Source: Acidimicrobiales bacterium (GTDB taxonomy: Bacteria; Actinomycetota; Acidimicrobiia; Acidimicrobiales; MedAcidi-G1). From it: DNA of 64,000 nt. The notes beneath the pieces were generated by a model. It saw nothing but the letters and a program-made list of their open reading frames with translations, had not been told where the DNA came from and ran no database searches. Below are positions 8,900 through 59,115 of the stretch, piece by piece. The position numbers and the translations under genes were made by a program. The stretch's first letter is position 1, and every line of letters starts with the position of its first letter. The DNA lies in NCBI GenBank assembly GCA_030748555.1, contig JASMLT010000002.1:20511-84510 (forward strand), read 5' to 3'.

Positions 8900-9852
8900 T
8901 GCTCGTAGATGGTTTAGAAATAAACAATTGGAACCGAACAACAGTAAAAGAAGTCAGATCTGGCGGGATTGACGTAGTTCACGCTACTTGTGGAGTCTGG
9001 GAGGACTTAGCGGGAGCAGTTACCAAAATCGGAGATTGGCGGCACTTTGCCCGTGAAAACTCTGATCTCGTCAGAGTCGTAAGAAATGTTCAAGAAATGC
9101 ATCAAGCTAAAGACGAGGGGGTTCTAGGAGTGATTCTGGGTTTTCAAAATAGCTCCATGCTGGGAGATGATCCTGAGATGGTAGGCGTTTTTGCGGATCT
9201 TGGAATACGAATAATTCAACTCACGTACAACATTTCAAATCATCTTGGATCTAGTTGCTGGGAACCTGAAGACAGTGGACTAACTAGAGTGGGTCATCGC
9301 ATGATCAGTGCCTTCAACACATCTGGGGTGCTTATTGACATTTCACATGTTGGAAACCGAACTGGTCTTGAGGCTATAGATAGTTCTGAAAAGCCTATTG
9401 CAGTAACTCACGGCAACCCTTCCTCTTTTTGTGACTCCCCGCGCAACAAACCTGACCATCTGATTGAAGCTCTTGCAGATCGAGGCGGCATTATAGGTTG
9501 TACTCTCTACCCTCTTTTCATGGGGGGAGACACGATTACACGTCTTGATTGGTGCCATATGGTCGCAGATACTGCAGAAAAGATCGGTGTCGAGCATGTA
9601 GCGATTGGCAGTGATTCAGTAGTTGGGTGGGCACCTGATGCTTTAGGTTGGATGCGGAGTGGACGATGGGATAGGCCAAAACAAGTTGAAGATATACCCA
9701 CTTTTCCAACTTGGCCTGAATGGTTTAAGGGGCCAGAGGATTTTGATTCATTATCTGAAGGGCTTTCTGAAGTGGGTTTCTCTTCAGATGAAATTGCTTC
9801 AGTCATGGGGTCTAACTGGATTCGTTTGTTCGAAGATGTGTTCAATGAATGA
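8899..9852 (+). CDS. Peptidase M19 (membrane dipeptidase) family protein with altered metal site
   Basis: A 317-aa protein of the renal dipeptidase / M19 amidohydrolase fold. Beta-metal ligands are visible: His150 (LIDISH), His171 (IAVTHGN) and Asp239 (IGSD), with the PRNKPD loop. The alpha-metal HxD that normally follows the N-terminal strand is replaced (VDGLEINNW: Leu6 and Ile8 stand where His and Asp should be). The bridging Glu is Gln83 (GFQN in place of VEGG). The same DGL...W and GFQN variants occur, as I recall, in the M19-like protein beside the dimethylglycine demethylase genes of Pseudomonas, so this is a divergent subfamily rather than decay. Dipeptide hydrolysis should not be assumed. 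It overlaps both neighbours and is co-translated. Confidence 0.85.
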   Translation: MLVDGLEINNWNRTTVKEVRSGGIDVVHATCGVWEDLAGAVTKIGDWRHFARENSDLVRVVRNVQEMHQAKDEGVLGVILGFQNSSMLGDDPEMVGVFADLGIRIIQLTYNISNHLGSSCWEPEDSGLTRVGHRMISAFNTSGVLIDISHVGNRTGLEAIDSSEKPIAVTHGNPSSFCDSPRNKPDHLIEALADRGGIIGCTLYPLFMGGDTITRLDWCHMVADTAEKIGVEHVAIGSDSVVGWAPDALGWMRSGRWDRPKQVEDIPTFPTWPEWFKGPEDFDSLSEGLSEVGFSSDEIASVMGSNWIRLFEDVFNE

Positions 9853-10375
9853 AGCAAACATTCTTGTGGCTCCAAGAGAATTAAAGGACCAAGTCGAAAG
9901 GGCCAGTCGTGTTCTTGGTTGTGAAGCTAGTGTTGCTGATCGTTTAGCTGAAGATGTGACTTTCTGTGAAATTAACTACGGTCAAGGAATTTCTTCTTGG
10001 TTGCAAATAGCAACCTTGGATCCAATAGCTTTAGGTGAGGTTTTGAGAAGTTCACTTCGATTGAGACTGCCAACAGGTACTAAATCTCTTGATGTGCATT
10101 TTGATCCGCCTGTTTTATTTGTTTTACTCGCGCTTACTTTACACAATCAAGAAAGTTGTGGGGTCACTTGGTCGTGCGATACTGAAATGACTTGTGGTAG
10201 TTCCCCAGTTACCTCCGTTCATCTAAGATCTGATGCTTCTCCTTCCCCATTAACGAATAAGAAGACAGTCGATGCTTTATCAACTGGGTTAAAGGTTTCA
10301 CTTCCTGAATGGGAGCAATTAAACGAAATTGCTTCTCAGTTTCTTATGTCAGAGGAGGTTTTGGATGCCTCTTAA
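9845..10375 (+). CDS. Small DUF3726-like protein
   Basis: A 176-aa protein starting at ATG 9845, inside the end of the M19 gene (8-base overlap). The frame stays open further upstream, but that part lies inside the M19 coding sequence. The N-terminal helix (APRELKDQVERASRVLGCEA followed by SVADRLAEDVTFCEINYGQG) looks like the first helix of DUF3726 proteins, which often sit next to Ldh-family dehydrogenase genes. The rest has a hydrophobic strand or helix (FVLLALTLH) and no known catalytic motif. It is probably a partner or accessory of the adjacent Ldh2-type enzyme. The DUF assignment is from pattern memory and moderate at best; existence as a gene is strongly supported by the gene packing. 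Confidence 0.75.
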   Translation: MNEANILVAPRELKDQVERASRVLGCEASVADRLAEDVTFCEINYGQGISSWLQIATLDPIALGEVLRSSLRLRLPTGTKSLDVHFDPPVLFVLLALTLHNQESCGVTWSCDTEMTCGSSPVTSVHLRSDASPSPLTNKKTVDALSTGLKVSLPEWEQLNEIASQFLMSEEVLDAS

Positions 10376-10410
10376 AACAGGTACCTCATCTAAAGGAATG
10401 GCCTATAACA

Positions 10411-11403
10411 ATGGGTAGAAACTTGCTAGTATCCCTCGATGAAATAGAAACGACCACAAAAAAGGCACTTGAAAGTCACGGTGCCTCTGTTGAAGTTGCT
10501 TCTCTGGTAGCTCATGCTGTTCGTACTGCTGAAGAAAGAGGAAACAAGATATGTGGCCTCTACTATGTTGAGAGCTATTGCCTTCAATTAAGAACAGGTC
10601 GAGTTGATGGTGCAGTTGAACCTGTCGTTACTAACAATAAACCTGGAACTGTAAGAGTGGATGGGCGATTCGGTTTTGCTCAGTCGGCTTTTGCAGCAGG
10701 TTTCAATAAAGCTATAGAGGTAGCTCGTAGCAATGGGATATGCGGCTATTCGGTTGAACACACGCAAACTTGTACTTCTTTAGGATATTTCACAGAGCAA
10801 CTAGCCAAATCGGGAATGTTAGCTATAGGGGCAACCAATGCTTCTGCAGTAGTAGCCCCTCCGGGTGGTTCAGTACCTGTGCTTGGAACTAACCCAATTG
10901 CTATGGCAGTACCAGATGGTAAGGGAGGAATATCTTTCCAATTTGATTTCAGCACAAGTGCTATAGCGCTAGGTAAAATTACAATGGCAGCCGCTGCCAA
11001 TGAACCGATCCCTCTTGGTTGGGCAGTCGATAAAGATGGAAATCCGACCACCAATGCTAAAGATGCTCTAGAAGGTTCCTTGCTTTCTGCAGGTGGATAC
11101 AAGGGTTATGGTCTTGGACTCATGGCAGAACTGTTAGCTGGCGCATTAACCGGTTCGAGGTTGAGTATCGAGGTTCCGCCTTTGAAGACACCTGAAGGCG
11201 AACCTCATGACCTGGGTCAGTTCTACGTAGTAATTGATGTAGAAGCTTACGATGACATGTTTATGCAAAGACTAGAAAAACTGGCTGATGCAATTGAATC
11301 ACAAGCAGGTGCCCGCCTACCTGGTGCAAATATTCCTACCCCTGATGAAGTCGAAGTTGATGATGTTTTATGGTCAACCGTAAAACATCTTTCCAGCAAC
11401 TAG
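10411..11403 (+). CDS. Ldh2-family (malate/L-lactate dehydrogenase type) NAD(P)H-dependent oxidoreductase
   Basis: A 330-aa member of the Ldh2/MDG2 family, which includes L-sulfolactate, ureidoglycolate, delta1-pyrroline-2-carboxylate and delta1-piperideine-2-carboxylate oxidoreductases. Visible family features are GRFGFAQSAFAAGFNKAIEV, the nucleotide-binding segment LAIGATNASAVVAPPGGSVP with GTNPIAMAVP, and the C-terminal GGYKGYGLGLMAELLAGAL. I start at ATG 10411 because LLVSLDEIETTTKKALESHG is where family members begin; upstream codons overlap the previous gene. With M19-like and DUF3726-like partners, a cyclic imino acid reductase or a hydroxy acid dehydrogenase are both possible. The specificity cannot be read from the sequence. 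Confidence 0.9.
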   Translation: MGRNLLVSLDEIETTTKKALESHGASVEVASLVAHAVRTAEERGNKICGLYYVESYCLQLRTGRVDGAVEPVVTNNKPGTVRVDGRFGFAQSAFAAGFNKAIEVARSNGICGYSVEHTQTCTSLGYFTEQLAKSGMLAIGATNASAVVAPPGGSVPVLGTNPIAMAVPDGKGGISFQFDFSTSAIALGKITMAAAANEPIPLGWAVDKDGNPTTNAKDALEGSLLSAGGYKGYGLGLMAELLAGALTGSRLSIEVPPLKTPEGEPHDLGQFYVVIDVEAYDDMFMQRLEKLADAIESQAGARLPGANIPTPDEVEVDDVLWSTVKHLSSN

Positions 11404-11416
11404 AGATACTCCGAAC

Positions 11417-12013
11417 CTAAAGAGGGTTCTTCTCGGATATTCGTATCATTCGAGCTGCATCCACCGGTAAAAGATTTTTTTCAGGTGGGGGTGAAATACC
11501 TTTAGAGATTAAAGAAGTTGTTAATTCGTTTATAGTTCTGAAATTCAAATAGCCTTTCATTCCTCTATGAACTACCGACCGAGAGTCAGCGACCCATAGC
11601 AACCATTCAGTTAAAAGTGGTATCTGAATAGTAATTCTTGCTTTTTTTCCAGAGTGAGTCTCATATATAACCGGAGGATTCTTCCTGCGGCTCCAAGCTT
11701 TTAAGTTTTTCTGAATTTCCTCTTCTTTTACTTTCAGTTCTTTGGCGAATTTTTTCAAATTGCCTTTACGTTCAATAAAACCCAAAGAGTCAGGTCTAGC
11801 TCCTGCTAGATCAACTAATTTAAACCATTGACTTTGGAAATCCGAACCTCGCATCCCGTAACTTCTGATTGCAACTTTTTTTTCACTAAGAACGCTTAAA
11901 ACTGGAGCCCTGATTGAACTGCCTAAGAGATCTGAAGGAGAACAAGAACCAAAGCGTTGAGCAGATTTAAATCTCTCGATCGCTAATTCTCGATTTTTTT
12001 CTAAACCTGCCAT
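11417..12013 (-). CDS. Hypothetical protein (198 aa)
   Basis: I do not recognise this protein. It is basic and soluble, with a Lys/Glu-rich helix (KKFAKELKVKEEEIQKNLKA) in the middle and a Trp-rich stretch (LLTEWLLWVADSRSVVHRG) toward the C-terminus. It starts MAGLEKNRELAIERFKSAQR. There is no signal peptide or membrane helix. It is convergent with the Ldh2 gene, 13 bases apart, and no partner lies upstream. The K-E helix and basic character would fit nucleic-acid binding, but no domain is identifiable. Codon use looks like that of its neighbours, so it is probably a real gene. Confidence 0.6.
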   Translation of the reverse strand: MAGLEKNRELAIERFKSAQRFGSCSPSDLLGSSIRAPVLSVLSEKKVAIRSYGMRGSDFQSQWFKLVDLAGARPDSLGFIERKGNLKKFAKELKVKEEEIQKNLKAWSRRKNPPVIYETHSGKKARITIQIPLLTEWLLWVADSRSVVHRGMKGYLNFRTINELTTSLISKGISPPPEKNLLPVDAARMIRISEKNPL

Positions 12014-12112
12014 TACATAAGGTTACGACCTCATAGAAGACCACTGAGGGAGCCTCAAAATTAAGCTATTTTAAAGCACTTAAAAGTCATTAATTAGATC
12101 AATAACCAGATT

Positions 12113-48353: not shown

Positions 48354-49388
48354 TTATTTGTGCTTACTGGACAATCTAATCAAACCACTTCCGGAATTCA
48401 TCCGTCCGATTACTGCAGCATCATGTTCTGCTTCGATCAGTTTCTTAAGAGTTGTTTCAGCTTCTTCAGGCCCTACACCGAACACAAGACCGCCTGAAGT
48501 CTGTGCATCTGCTAAAAGATGAACGTCTATTTCTTCAATGGAACCGGCATCCAATTGTGATTCAATCCACTCAAGGTTCCTCTTACTGCCACCCGGCAAA
48601 TTTCCCGCTAAAGCTAAATTACGCGCATCGGGCAATATGGGTATTTCTGAAACATCTATTTCTACGTCAACTTTTGACTCTCTTGCTGCTCTTCCCAGGT
48701 GTCCTAATAATCCGAACCCAGTTATATCGGTAGCCCCAGTTGCACCAGCTTCAAGCGCTATTTCTGCTGCCTGATCGTTAAGTCTGAGCATCGATGCAAT
48801 CGCTGCATCCGTAGCTTCTTCGGTTGATTCTTGCTTTTTTATTGCTGTGGTTATTACACCCACTCCAAGCTTTTTAGTAAGTATCAACAAATCATTTTCA
48901 CGGAATCCAGAATTCTTTAACAAGTATTTAGGATCCACTTCACCCACAATAGCTAATCCGAATTTTGGCTCAGGGTCTTCGACTGTATGTCCACCAGCTA
49001 TCACAAAACCTGCTTCTTCAGCGACCTGATCCGCACCTTCCAAAACTTCCGATAATAGTTCCATCGGAAGTTCTTCAGAATTCCAGCCAACCAAATTAAT
49101 CGCCATTAATGGTTTCGCACCCATTGCATAAATGTCTGAAACAGCATTAGTTGCGGCTACTTTCCCCCAGGTAAGGGCGTCATCGATTACGGGAGTTATA
49201 AAATCCGCTGTCATTACCAGTGCTCTGTCTTCATCTAACTGCCAAACTGCAGCATCGTCACCTGTCGATGATCCGACGATTAGATTTTTTGATTTTTGTG
49301 GTTTAAGTCGGTGCAGAACCTGCTCCAGGTCACTCGGAGAGAGTTTGCAGCCTCAACCAGCACCATGGCTGAATTGTGTCAGTCTCAT
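48354..49388 (-). CDS. selD: Selenide, water dikinase SelD containing selenocysteine (in-frame UGA)
   Basis: 344 aa if TGA at 49355-49353 is read as Sec. The N-terminus, from ATG 49388, reads MRLTQFSHGAG-U-GCKLSPSD. E. coli SelD has the same stretch with Cys (RLTQYSHGAGCGCKISP), where Cys17 and Lys20 are catalytic. Here Sec12 and Lys15 take their places. The rest is standard SelD: the Asp of STGDDAAVW, TADFITPVIDDALTWGKVAA, NAVSDIYAMGAKPLMAINLV and ATGATDITGFGLLGHLGRAA. SD AGGAGG stands 5 bases before the ATG. A gene finder that reads UGA as stop would begin at 49214 and miss 58 codons. SelD makes selenophosphate for Sec-tRNA. A Sec-encoding SelD requires SelA, SelB and tRNA-Sec elsewhere in the genome. 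Confidence 0.92.
49317..49331 (-). promoter_or_regulatory. Candidate bacterial SECIS hairpin of selD
   Basis: On the minus strand GACCTG-GAG-CAGGTT forms a 6-bp stem (one G-U pair) with the three-base loop GAG. Its loop begins 27 bases after the UGA at 49353, inside the usual 16-37 range, and has a G in its first loop position, matching the minimal bacterial SECIS rule. Only the apical part is obvious; longer pairing was not computed. Confidence 0.5.
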
Positions 49389-49448
49389 GCAAACCTCCTA
49401 GGTAATAAGTTCAGAGTAGGCGACTACTCGTAGATTTTCAGGCTTTTT

Positions 49449-50627: not shown

Positions 50628-51077
50628 ATGGAATTATGGCAATTAGAAGCTTATGCGGAAATTCGTGATCTTATATCCGCTTATAACTCTTTCGGCGATC
50701 GTGGTCGTTTCGATGACTTAATGGAACTTTTTGCTGAGACAGCTGTGATGGATATTGATGACGGCCGACTATACGAAGGCACTGATCAGATAAAGACAAT
50801 ATTTACAGATACTAACGATTCTTTATCAAAAGGTAATTCGCCTGCATACATCCAACACCACACTGCATCCACTCATATCGAATTCGAAGGAACCACGAAA
50901 GCAAACTCCAAAAGTTATTTCTCAGTCTTTCTTTCACATGGCATAGACCACTGGGGGCGCTACGAAGACAAATTCGAAAATATAAATGGTAAATGGATGT
51001 TTATCTACCGACGTGTAAAAACAGACGGTTGGCTTCCAGGGGGTTGGGCCGCCGAGCGTTTGGAAGGAAAAAATTGA
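50628..51077 (+). CDS. SnoaL-like / NTF2-fold protein
   Basis: 149 aa. The NTF2-like fold shows in AYAEIRDLISAYNSFGDRGR, DDLMELFAETAVMDIDDGRL, YIQHHTASTHIEFEGTTKAN and HWGRYEDKFENINGKWMFIY. The C-terminus (RRVKTDGWLPGGWA) is typical of SnoaL-like domain proteins that act on polyketide or steroid substrates, or have no catalytic activity. Its start codon lies only 9 bases (18 with ATG 50609) from the divergent class-V aminotransferase gene. The stop overlaps the aceK start by TTGA, so they are co-translated. Confidence 0.85.
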   Translation: MELWQLEAYAEIRDLISAYNSFGDRGRFDDLMELFAETAVMDIDDGRLYEGTDQIKTIFTDTNDSLSKGNSPAYIQHHTASTHIEFEGTTKANSKSYFSVFLSHGIDHWGRYEDKFENINGKWMFIYRRVKTDGWLPGGWAAERLEGKN

Positions 51078-52876
51078 GTTTCTTTTCCAAACTTAAAAAC
51101 AGTTCTCTTGCTATCAATTCAAAAAATGAAAATAATGTTGCGCTGGAGGTGTCAGAAATAATCTTCTTTTCTTTCATTTCTTACATGGAATCTGTGCAAG
51201 AAATCTCTCAAAAAGCAGGTGAACACTTTGCTTCAAAACAGTGGTCTATGAACGAAGTCAATGCAAGCGAACGTCTAGGACTTCACCAGGTAAAAGTTTT
51301 AGAGGTGGTCTCACAGGTTCAGGATTTGTTGGATCAAGTAACTGACAAACGTGGAGAATGGCGCAACTCCCGTGACATATACCAGCAGTTTGTAGCCAGA
51401 CGACCAGATCAAGGACTCGCTGAAACTTTTTTCAACTCAGTGGCCAGACGTGTTTTTACAACAATCGGAATTGACAACGATGTGGAAATTAGATGGTTCG
51501 GTGCGACGACAATCTCACGTGGTGAGTCTAAAGCCGAAGTGTTCAACACTTGGACACGTCATGGAGATTCAGCTGCACTAGTTGACTCTCTCTTGTCTTC
51601 TTATGAATTAAACGTTGGATGGGAAGACCGTTCACGCGATGCAAAACTTGTAGCTGGCCGCTTAGATGCTTTTCTGATGAATTCATGGGGAGGTCTCAAG
51701 CTAGATGGAATAGACATGCTTAAACCCGTGTTTTACAGAAATCGGGGTGCCTATCTAATTGGAAGAGTCAGGTTCTTGAACCGAGTAACACCATTCATTC
51801 TTCCACTACTTCATGGACCCAATGGATTAGTTGTAGACACAGTGCTACTAACTGAAGATTTGGGCAGCCGACTTTTCGGATTCACAAGGTCATATTTTTT
51901 CGTTGACTGGCCGAATCCTTCAGCAGTAGTCGGTTTCCTGAAATCCTTACTTCCTACCAAGTCGTTACACCAAATTTACACCGCACTCGGCTATCCGCAA
52001 CATGGTAAAAGCAGTCTTTACCGGTCTTTATACCGCCACTTGCAGACCTCTAATGACAGATTCGTAAAAGCCCGTGGAACCCCTGGAATGGTTATGGCTG
52101 TTTTTACTTTGGTTTCTTTTAACGTCGTTTTCAAAATCATCAAAGACCACTTTGACCCTCCAAAGAACACCACGAGGGATGCTGTTAGACGTCGATACGA
52201 TCTCGTCTACAGTCGTGACCGAGTGGGCAGAATGGTGGATACACAAGAATTTGAAAACCTTTCTTTCAGCCGTGACCGTTTTGATCCAGAACTCCTTTCG
52301 GAACTACTAGAAGATGCAAGCGAATCTGTTTTTGTGGAGGACGACAAAGTGATTATCAAGCATGCTTATACAGAGCGCCACGTCTACCCCTTAAATCTTT
52401 ACCTTCAAGAGATGTCTCAAGAGAAAGCTGAGGCAGCAGCTATTGACTGGGGTTATGCGATTAAAGACCTAGCGGCTGCAAATGTTTGGCCTGGTGATTT
52501 GTTCACGAAAAACTTTGGAGTTACAAGACATGGAAACGTTGTTTTCTACGACTATGACGAACTTGCACTACTCGAAGAGTGCCGATTTAGAAGTATTCCC
52601 GACACTAAAGATCATGAAGATGAAATGCGCGCTCAACCTTGGTTTGCTATTCAAGAGGGAGATGCATTTCCTGAACAATTTGAAACGTTTATGAGTTTTC
52701 CAAAAACTGTTCCGATCGAGATTTGGGAGAATTTCAAAGAGTCACATAAAGACCTTTTCACAGTCAAATTTTGGCAAAGGGTTCAAAAACAATTAGCCGA
52801 CGGTGATTTGCCGGAATTCTTCCCTTATCCAGAGGATCTTAGATTTAGACATGATTTGAGAGCTCATTCGGTCTAA
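51074..52876 (+). CDS. aceK: Isocitrate dehydrogenase kinase/phosphatase
   Basis: 600 aa, matching AceK length. I use TTG 51074, where LSFFSKLKNSSLAINSKNEN begins, with SD-like GGAAGG upstream and TTGA overlap with the previous stop; the frame stays open further upstream but only inside the SnoaL gene. ARGTPGMVMAVFTLVSFNVV is the ATP loop. VFKIIKDHF has the Lys, and RVGRMVDTQEFENL, AANVWPGDLFTKNFGVTRHG and VVFYDYDELALLEE carry the catalytic Asp residues. AceK phosphorylates isocitrate dehydrogenase to divert isocitrate to the glyoxylate shunt. It is familiar from proteobacteria; finding it in an apparent actinobacterium is unusual. No isocitrate lyase or ICDH gene is in the window. Confidence 0.92.
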   Translation: MSFFSKLKNSSLAINSKNENNVALEVSEIIFFSFISYMESVQEISQKAGEHFASKQWSMNEVNASERLGLHQVKVLEVVSQVQDLLDQVTDKRGEWRNSRDIYQQFVARRPDQGLAETFFNSVARRVFTTIGIDNDVEIRWFGATTISRGESKAEVFNTWTRHGDSAALVDSLLSSYELNVGWEDRSRDAKLVAGRLDAFLMNSWGGLKLDGIDMLKPVFYRNRGAYLIGRVRFLNRVTPFILPLLHGPNGLVVDTVLLTEDLGSRLFGFTRSYFFVDWPNPSAVVGFLKSLLPTKSLHQIYTALGYPQHGKSSLYRSLYRHLQTSNDRFVKARGTPGMVMAVFTLVSFNVVFKIIKDHFDPPKNTTRDAVRRRYDLVYSRDRVGRMVDTQEFENLSFSRDRFDPELLSELLEDASESVFVEDDKVIIKHAYTERHVYPLNLYLQEMSQEKAEAAAIDWGYAIKDLAAANVWPGDLFTKNFGVTRHGNVVFYDYDELALLEECRFRSIPDTKDHEDEMRAQPWFAIQEGDAFPEQFETFMSFPKTVPIEIWENFKESHKDLFTVKFWQRVQKQLADGDLPEFFPYPEDLRFRHDLRAHSV

Positions 52877-52886
52877 TGTCTATGTT

Positions 52887-53558
52887 GTGAAGAGACCAAT
52901 TGCTATTGCCCCGTCAGTTTTGCCCGCAGATTTTTCGCGCTTGGGCGAGGAATGTATAGCTTTAGAAGAAGCGGGGGTGGATCGAATTCAATTTGACGTG
53001 ATGGACGGAGTTTTCGTTCCAAATTTAACTTTCGGGCCAGACGTCATTAAATCAATACGCCCTCTCGTCAAAGTTCCTTTCGAAGCACACTTAATGGTCG
53101 TTGAACCAGACAATCTAATCGACCGTTATGTAGATGCCGGTTGCGACATAGTAATTGTTCATGCTGAAGCATGTTTACATTTGCACCGAACGCTCAAATA
53201 CATTGCAGACAGCGGTGTTGTTCCAGGAGTTGCACTCAACCCTCATACTCCGCCAGAACTCATCAATGAAGTTAAAGATCTAATTGGTTTAGCTTTGGTC
53301 ATGACCGTAAACCCAGGTTTCGGGGGTCAAAAATATATTTCATCAATGGAACCAAAAATTAAACGCGTGTCAGAGATACTCGATGGCTTAGATTGTGATA
53401 TTGAAGTTGATGGTGGCATTGGTGTCGAGACAGTTTCTGGTGCAGTTCAAGCTGGTGCAAATGTTCTAGTTTCCGGAAGCGCTCTCTATAAGGATCCTAA
53501 GGGTCTTGAAAATGCTGTAAAAGAATTAAGAAGTAAGGCAGAAGCATCCCAATCTTGA
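52887..53558 (+). CDS. rpe: Ribulose-phosphate 3-epimerase
   Basis: 223 aa TIM-barrel enzyme interconverting ribulose 5-phosphate and xylulose 5-phosphate. The family blocks are IAPSVLPADFSRLGEECIAL, IQFDVMDGVFVPNLTFGPDV (metal-binding His/Asp region), FEAHLMVVEPDNLIDRY, VIVHAEACLHLHRTLKYI, VMTVNPGFGGQKYISSM and IEVDGGIGVETV (second Asp). GTG 52887 is the most probable start, 10 bases from aceK, so the two are likely cotranscribed. The link with aceK ties central-carbon genes together. Confidence 0.94.
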   Translation: MKRPIAIAPSVLPADFSRLGEECIALEEAGVDRIQFDVMDGVFVPNLTFGPDVIKSIRPLVKVPFEAHLMVVEPDNLIDRYVDAGCDIVIVHAEACLHLHRTLKYIADSGVVPGVALNPHTPPELINEVKDLIGLALVMTVNPGFGGQKYISSMEPKIKRVSEILDGLDCDIEVDGGIGVETVSGAVQAGANVLVSGSALYKDPKGLENAVKELRSKAEASQS

Positions 53559-54224: not shown

Positions 54225-54306
54225 GCGGACGTGGCGGAATTGGCAGACGCACCAGCCTTAGGAGCTGGCGCCGCAAGGCGTGGGGGTTCGAGTCCCCCCG
54301 TCCGCA
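54225..54306 (+). tRNA. tRNA-Leu (anticodon UAG)
   Basis: 82 bases. The acceptor stem GCGGACG pairs with CGTCCGC followed by discriminator A (54306). The anticodon loop CTTAGGA gives anticodon TAG, decoding CUA/CUN Leu. The TTCGAGTCC T-loop and a long variable arm (GGCGCCGCAAGGCGT) confirm a class II tRNA. The CCA end is not encoded. The next coding gene begins at 54308, one base after the tRNA end. Confidence 0.97.
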
Positions 54307-54307
54307 C

Positions 54308-58730: not shown

Positions 58731-59115
58731 GGGGCTGATCGGTTTCGACGCCGGTGACAGTAGCCGTTTTGTGCGACCAGAGTTGCTCAGACTCTTTAAA
58801 CGGGGCTTAAAAAGAGACTCCAACACGGATGATCTCGCTCTCGCAGCCTGACCTAGTCAGGTTGTAGAGAGTCATCGCGACCGGTAACGGCACGCGGGGC
58901 CGATCCACCGCAGCCTGGCAACAGAAGCGGAGGAGACCGCAGGGATAGACCGCTGACGGCGCGAAAGAACGCTGGCTTAAGGGAAAGACCTTGAGGCGAG
59001 CCTTGTGCTAACTGATCCGGCAGTGTGACAGCCTTAAGACACAGCCACGGGAATGGTCGTATCGCAAGCGGGTGCACTCCGACGGACGGGGGTTCGATTC
59101 CCCCCAGCTCCACCA
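58731..59115 (+). ncRNA. ssrA: Transfer-messenger RNA (tmRNA)
   Basis: 385 bases. The 5' end GGGGCTGATCGGTTTCGAC and the 3' end GGTTCGATTCCCCCCAGCTC plus encoded CCACCA form the Ala-tRNA-like domain. The mRNA-like part ends with codons GCT CTC GCA GCC TGA (58849-58851). Reading back in frame gives the probable tag GLKRDSNTDDLALAA from a GGC resume codon at 58804. The ALAA end is the usual Clp degradation tag. The resume codon is inferred by frame and the A-rich stretch, not proved. SmpB is encoded just upstream. Confidence 0.96.

Follow-up and report, generated by a model that had tools for sequence, protein, structure and literature searches.

Isocitrate dehydrogenase kinase/phosphatase (AceK) of Escherichia coli switches isocitrate dehydrogenase (ICDH) off and on, and in this way controls the glyoxylate shunt. 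A gene for AceK was found in a stretch of 64,000 nucleotides (the window) from an apparent actinobacterium. The locus raises two questions: whether the gene marks a horizontal transfer, and whether it serves the same control in its present host. According to a 2016 paper, AceK is restricted to Gram-negative bacteria, and the ICDHs of actinobacteria have lost, or never possessed, the elements that AceK needs (PMC4999502).

The aceK gene and its neighbourhood

The window lies within a contig of 84.5 kb; the assembly to which it belongs has 73 contigs, totals 1.35 Mb and is 70% complete. The sequence-only reading had described a full-length AceK with an intact ATP loop and catalytic Asp residues; the coordinates were found to be exact, both domains complete and the residues conserved (Table 1). 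The product scored 631.7 bits against the NCBIfam equivalog PRK02946 (cut-off 488), and a phmmer search found 3eps, the AceK of E. coli (E 7e-106; residues 26-591). In the alignment, the E. coli catalytic residues K336, D457, N462, D475, D477, and E478 were all kept, and K461, a nearly invariant position, was present as K479. The conserved set includes residues needed for the kinase (roles in PMC3747045) and for the phosphatase (roles in PMC6591243). Judged by these matches, the open reading frame is a genuine AceK, chance being excluded, and an ordinary member of the AceK family. The protein was 90-96% identical to the record of the 'marine actinobacterium MedAcidi-G1' and to six other Acidimicrobiales records. 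The host, earlier taken for an apparent actinobacterium, is thus a marine member of the Acidimicrobiales of the genus MedAcidi-G1.

Table 1. Features at the aceK locus (positions in the window)
Feature	Position	Strand	Evidence
SnoaL_4-domain gene, overlapping the aceK start	50628..51077	+	PF13577, 68.5 bits
GGAAGG, Shine-Dalgarno-like, 5' of the TTG start	51062..51067	+	Read from the sequence; putative function
aceK, isocitrate dehydrogenase kinase/phosphatase	51074..52876	+	600 aa, TTG start; Pfam and NCBIfam far above cut-off, E. coli AceK match
AceK regulatory domain, PF20423	51155..52054	+	273.5 bits, profile positions 2-302 of 302
AceK kinase/phosphatase domain, PF06315 (AceK_kinase)	52055..52834	+	348 bits, profile positions 1-256 of 256
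Catalytic Asp, E. coli D457 = residue 475 of MedAcidi-G1 AceK	52496..52498	+	Alignment column and sequence
rpe, ribulose-phosphate 3-epimerase, directly 3' of aceK	52887..53558	+	TIGR01163, 240.6 bits (cut-off 212.6)

The SnoaL-like gene had been read as co-translated with aceK. The overlap between the aceK start (51074-51076) and the SnoaL_4 stop TGA (51075-51077) is real, but the pairing with SnoaL varies among family members. It adjoins aceK in the genus, lies about 0.6 kb away in two members of the same family (G156 and G233) and was not found near aceK in two further genera of that family (G128 and G181). Its absence from the aceK surroundings in these two genera led us to drop SnoaL as a functional partner of AceK, and the gene is probably a mere neighbour. 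The earlier reading had placed aceK next to rpe; rpe follows aceK at once, and its place 3' of aceK was conserved in the other genera of the family examined. Both genes look incidental as neighbours. In the family members examined, the gene order selD, aminotransferase (opposite strand), aceK, rpe, clpP, and GGDEF/EAL was kept, so that aceK adjoins rpe/clpP and not aceBA or icd. In other Acidimicrobiia, the orders aceB-aceA-aceK (G552) and aceA-aceK-aceB (G561) were found, and in two other actinobacterial classes aceK was linked to icd, as icd-aceK in G382 and as a divergent pair in G405.

Other features of the window were also recorded. The selD gene on the minus strand (48354-49392, upper end approximate) seems to encode a selenoprotein, as an in-frame TGA read as selenocysteine extends it continuously from the called ORF of 286 aa; it adjoins a cysteine-desulfurase-like aminotransferase gene. 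A tRNA-Leu gene (54225-54307, plus strand) was found immediately after clpP, and a tmRNA gene was present at 58731-59115 (plus strand).

The glyoxylate shunt and the proposed isocitrate dehydrogenase target

The earlier reading had also expected a glyoxylate shunt, to be checked by a search for aceA/aceB and for an ICDH with the phospho-Ser site. The search was run, and the expectation was borne out by isocitrate lyase (ICL) in the host genome and by the ICDH with its phospho-Ser site in congeners. The host ICL (671.8 bits, cut-off 562) was found at the end of a 5.6-kb contig (C41) and is truncated there; malate synthase was not found in the 70% complete bin. The congener G206 contained overlapping aceB-aceA genes, encoding malate synthase A (764.9 bits) and ICL (749.3 bits). 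Malate synthase would go unseen in the host because in the G206 order its gene stands directly upstream of that for ICL, where the contig ends. With ICL in the host genome and the full set in congeners, the conclusion that the MedAcidi-G1 lineage has the glyoxylate shunt holds.

Among the 34 AceK-positive genomes tested, 33 contained ICL and 31 contained malate synthase. In the class sample, ICL was present in 71 of 76 AceK-positive genomes as against 71 of 269 AceK-negative ones (Fisher p 2e-27, uncorrected for kinship; a relatedness-aware test had two independent pairs only). The converse fails, since ICL occurs without AceK in those 71 genomes. No AceK was found in one family of the class, f129 (genomes of about 1 Mb), although 35 of its sampled genomes contained ICL.

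Of the 34 AceK-positive genomes, 30 contained a type I NADP-ICDH that scored above the cut-off. The four exceptions were the MedAcidi-G1 host genome, G096 and G195 (both with icd fragments), and G433 (none at the cut-off). In the host bin, at 70% completeness, the search for icd gave weak isopropylmalate-dehydrogenase-like matches only. The congeners G199 and G206 contained type I NADP-ICDH of 614-616 bits (cut-off 567) with an intact GGGFRSLN. No AceK-positive genome among the 34 contained a monomeric IDH (PF03971), as against 6 of 19 AceK-negative ones.

The phospho-Ser loop was intact in every AceK-positive ICDH read. The residue two positions before the phospho-Ser was Phe (GGGFRSLN/GEGFRSLN) in most AceK-positive Acidimicrobiales (ICDH loci L051-L080), whereas it was Ile in 8 of 9 AceK-negative Acidimicrobiales; this difference may merely track phylogeny. 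In the ICDH tree, the Acidimicrobiia enzymes and those of two other actinobacterial classes formed a clade (100/98), within which the AceK-positive members of the order grouped in a subclade of their own (100/99) that contained no AceK-negative member. Judged from the sequences, the ICDH of AceK-positive Acidimicrobiia is a native actinobacterial enzyme. A PDB search placed it nearer to the ICDH of Bacillus subtilis (571 bits) than to that of E. coli (490 bits).

According to previous studies, ICDH offers AceK a docking segment; in B. subtilis this segment forms a long helical hairpin and bars AceK from access (PMC3521221, PMC4999502). In Acidimicrobiia this recognition segment, between GAF and D.IAD, comprised 41 residues, whereas E. 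coli has 45 and Anoxybacillus 58. A model predicted for the ICDH of G206 (mean pLDDT 86) places two strands and a single short helical turn in the segment, and no hairpin. The short segment is permissive and not diagnostic, because AceK-negative relatives have a segment of identical length, and it was therefore dropped as a marker of AceK control.

A group of Zixibacteria genomes (G869, G870, G872, and G873, with AceK in L023, L024, L026, and L027) contained no type I ICDH above the cut-off; in G869, G870, and G873 an IDH-like ORF of 492 aa was found in its place. Either these assemblies are incomplete, or AceK acts there on another type of IDH.

Distribution and origin of AceK

Within the phylum, AceK is frequent in Acidimicrobiia and scarce in the other groups. 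Of the 48 family genomes, 45 carried it, including all 23 near-complete ones (at least 90% complete, at most 5% contaminated); so did 18 of 198 genomes of the order and 76 of 345 sampled genomes of the class Acidimicrobiia, the latter belonging to 42 of 168 sampled genera. Across the phylum, 10 of 397 genomes had a match, one of which was weak and contained stop codons. No viral record with the AceK patterns searched was found in IMG/VR. Phage records gave five AceK matches, all of proteobacterial type, of which two sit in Salmonella genome contigs and the remaining ones are probably host DNA; viral carriage of aceK was rejected on these grounds.

A maximum-likelihood tree was built from 60 AceKs; it is unrooted and leaves aside the alpha-, beta-, and deltaproteobacterial AceKs. 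The AceKs of the order formed one clade (100/100) beside those of other Acidimicrobiia. Three AceKs from other actinobacterial classes fell among the Acidimicrobiia AceKs, the whole group being supported at 93/85. The gammaproteobacterial AceKs stood apart from this Acidimicrobiia-centred group in the AceK trees, and so did those of Zixibacteria, Acidobacteriota, and Calditrichota. A constraint joining the AceKs of the order with Gammaproteobacteria was rejected (p-AU 0.0002). The aceK gene is old in Acidimicrobiia and was vertically inherited within the family of MedAcidi-G1.

One genome of another actinobacterial class, the single-contig G405 (L186), carries aceK (9047-10777, minus strand) and icd (10871-12052, plus strand) divergently. 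Its AceK grouped with Gammaproteobacteria (100/100), and its ICDH grouped with that of E. coli (100/99) and has a recognition segment of 45 residues, the E. coli length. From these placements, kinase and target appear to have been transferred together. A single origin of all actinobacterial AceK, that of G405 included, was rejected (p-AU 0.0015).

The sequence-only reading had suggested that AceK may mark a horizontal transfer. A recent transfer from a proteobacterium to the MedAcidi-G1 organism or genus is very unlikely. AceK is mostly described from proteobacteria, and its scarcity across the phylum would fit such an event, but its family-wide presence at a conserved locus, its frequency in the class (named by the sequence-only reading as a refuting finding) and the phylogeny proposed at that time as a check, with its clade separate from the gammaproteobacterial AceKs and the rejected constraint joining the two, all speak against it. 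That a proteobacterial fragment was assembled or binned into an actinobacterial bin is extremely improbable, fragmentary as the assembly is, since the locus lies inside its contig and other, independent assemblies from the genus and family show the same gene order; on the latter ground contamination was rejected as the source of aceK. An ancient transfer into the ancestor of Acidimicrobiia, or between its orders and neighbouring actinobacterial classes, followed by inheritance with losses, has a slightly better than even chance. It would leave the function of AceK as proposed below and would differ in origin alone. The patchiness of AceK in the order and phylum, the AceKs of three other classes among those of Acidimicrobiia, and G405, which demonstrates that transfer into the phylum does occur, all favour this origin. 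However, the AceK-negative members of the order mostly have no ICL, so that joint loss of AceK and the shunt explains the patchiness equally well, and the missing root of the AceK tree also weighs against it.

Proposed function and its meaning

The MedAcidi-G1 AceK is very probably functional, and would control the isocitrate branch point via ICDH as in E. coli. During growth on acetate, fatty acids or other substrates that yield acetyl-CoA, AceK would phosphorylate the active-site serine of the native NADP-ICDH, the equivalent of E. coli Ser113 within GGGFRSLN. The phosphorylated serine would block the binding of isocitrate, which would then be diverted into isocitrate lyase and malate synthase. 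On a change in energy or precursor supply, the same AceK would remove the phosphate and restore the TCA cycle. The activity, target, effectors, and physiology in this proposal are carried over from the E. coli enzyme. The gene itself, both domains, the catalytic residues, the presence throughout the family, the co-occurrence with the shunt and the target, the intact phospho-loop, the ICDH segment free of a long blocking insert and, in related actinobacteria, the clustering of aceK with aceBA or icd were observed directly. Against the proposal stand the host bin, from which icd and aceB are missing, the PDB scores that place the ICDH nearer to B. subtilis, the 71 genomes of the class with ICL but no AceK, the equally short recognition segment of AceK-negative relatives, and the position of aceK in the family, away from aceBA and icd. 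This position beside rpe and clpP would also suit an AceK that phosphorylates another protein, or that acts as a kinase or a phosphatase only, with no control of the isocitrate branch point. Such a role is improbable, as both kinase and phosphatase residues are kept, and as the co-occurrence with ICL is strong and relatives link aceK to aceBA or icd. For control of ICDH by AceK to have been an old and regular means of shunt regulation across Acidimicrobiia, acting on the native ICDH, with a separate import of icd and aceK as a pair into another actinobacterial class, is reasonably likely.

The MedAcidi-G1 enzyme resembles E. coli AceK (PDB 3eps, 3lc6, 3lcb, 4p69, and 6k5l) in its two full-length domains, tested catalytic residues and size of about 580-600 aa, and is likewise accompanied by isocitrate lyase, malate synthase, and type I NADP-ICDH. 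However, the two proteins are only 33% identical, the family has aceK outside the aceBA operon, and the putative substrate is a native actinobacterial ICDH whose recognition segment is 4 residues shorter than that of E. coli. The AceKs of Zixibacteria, Acidobacteriota, and Calditrichota are also full-length, non-proteobacterial, and 34-40% identical to it, whereas they form a separate clade and contain Asp instead of Glu after DYD (E. coli E478). In mycobacteria, which belong to the same phylum, control is exerted at the same branch between ICDH and isocitrate lyase, but through metabolite-mediated activation of ICD and with no AceK (PMC4999502).

The Acidimicrobiia genomes contradict the view that AceK is confined to Gram-negative bacteria (PMC4999502). 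A 2025 study of UBA5794 Acidimicrobiia reported aceA, aceB, and icd and never mentioned aceK (PMC12008989). In the open-access literature, which was the scope of our search (subscription papers lay outside it), no paper describing AceK in Actinomycetota was found; sequence databases may well annotate such proteins as AceK already. The presence of AceK in a quarter of the sampled genera of the class, with type I ICDH and the shunt in the tested cases, gives a wider range to a classic protein-phosphorylation switch. It offers natural AceK-ICDH pairs for the comparison of substrate recognition with E. coli, and suggests a way in which marine actinobacteria, most of them uncultured, may direct the carbon derived from acetyl-CoA.
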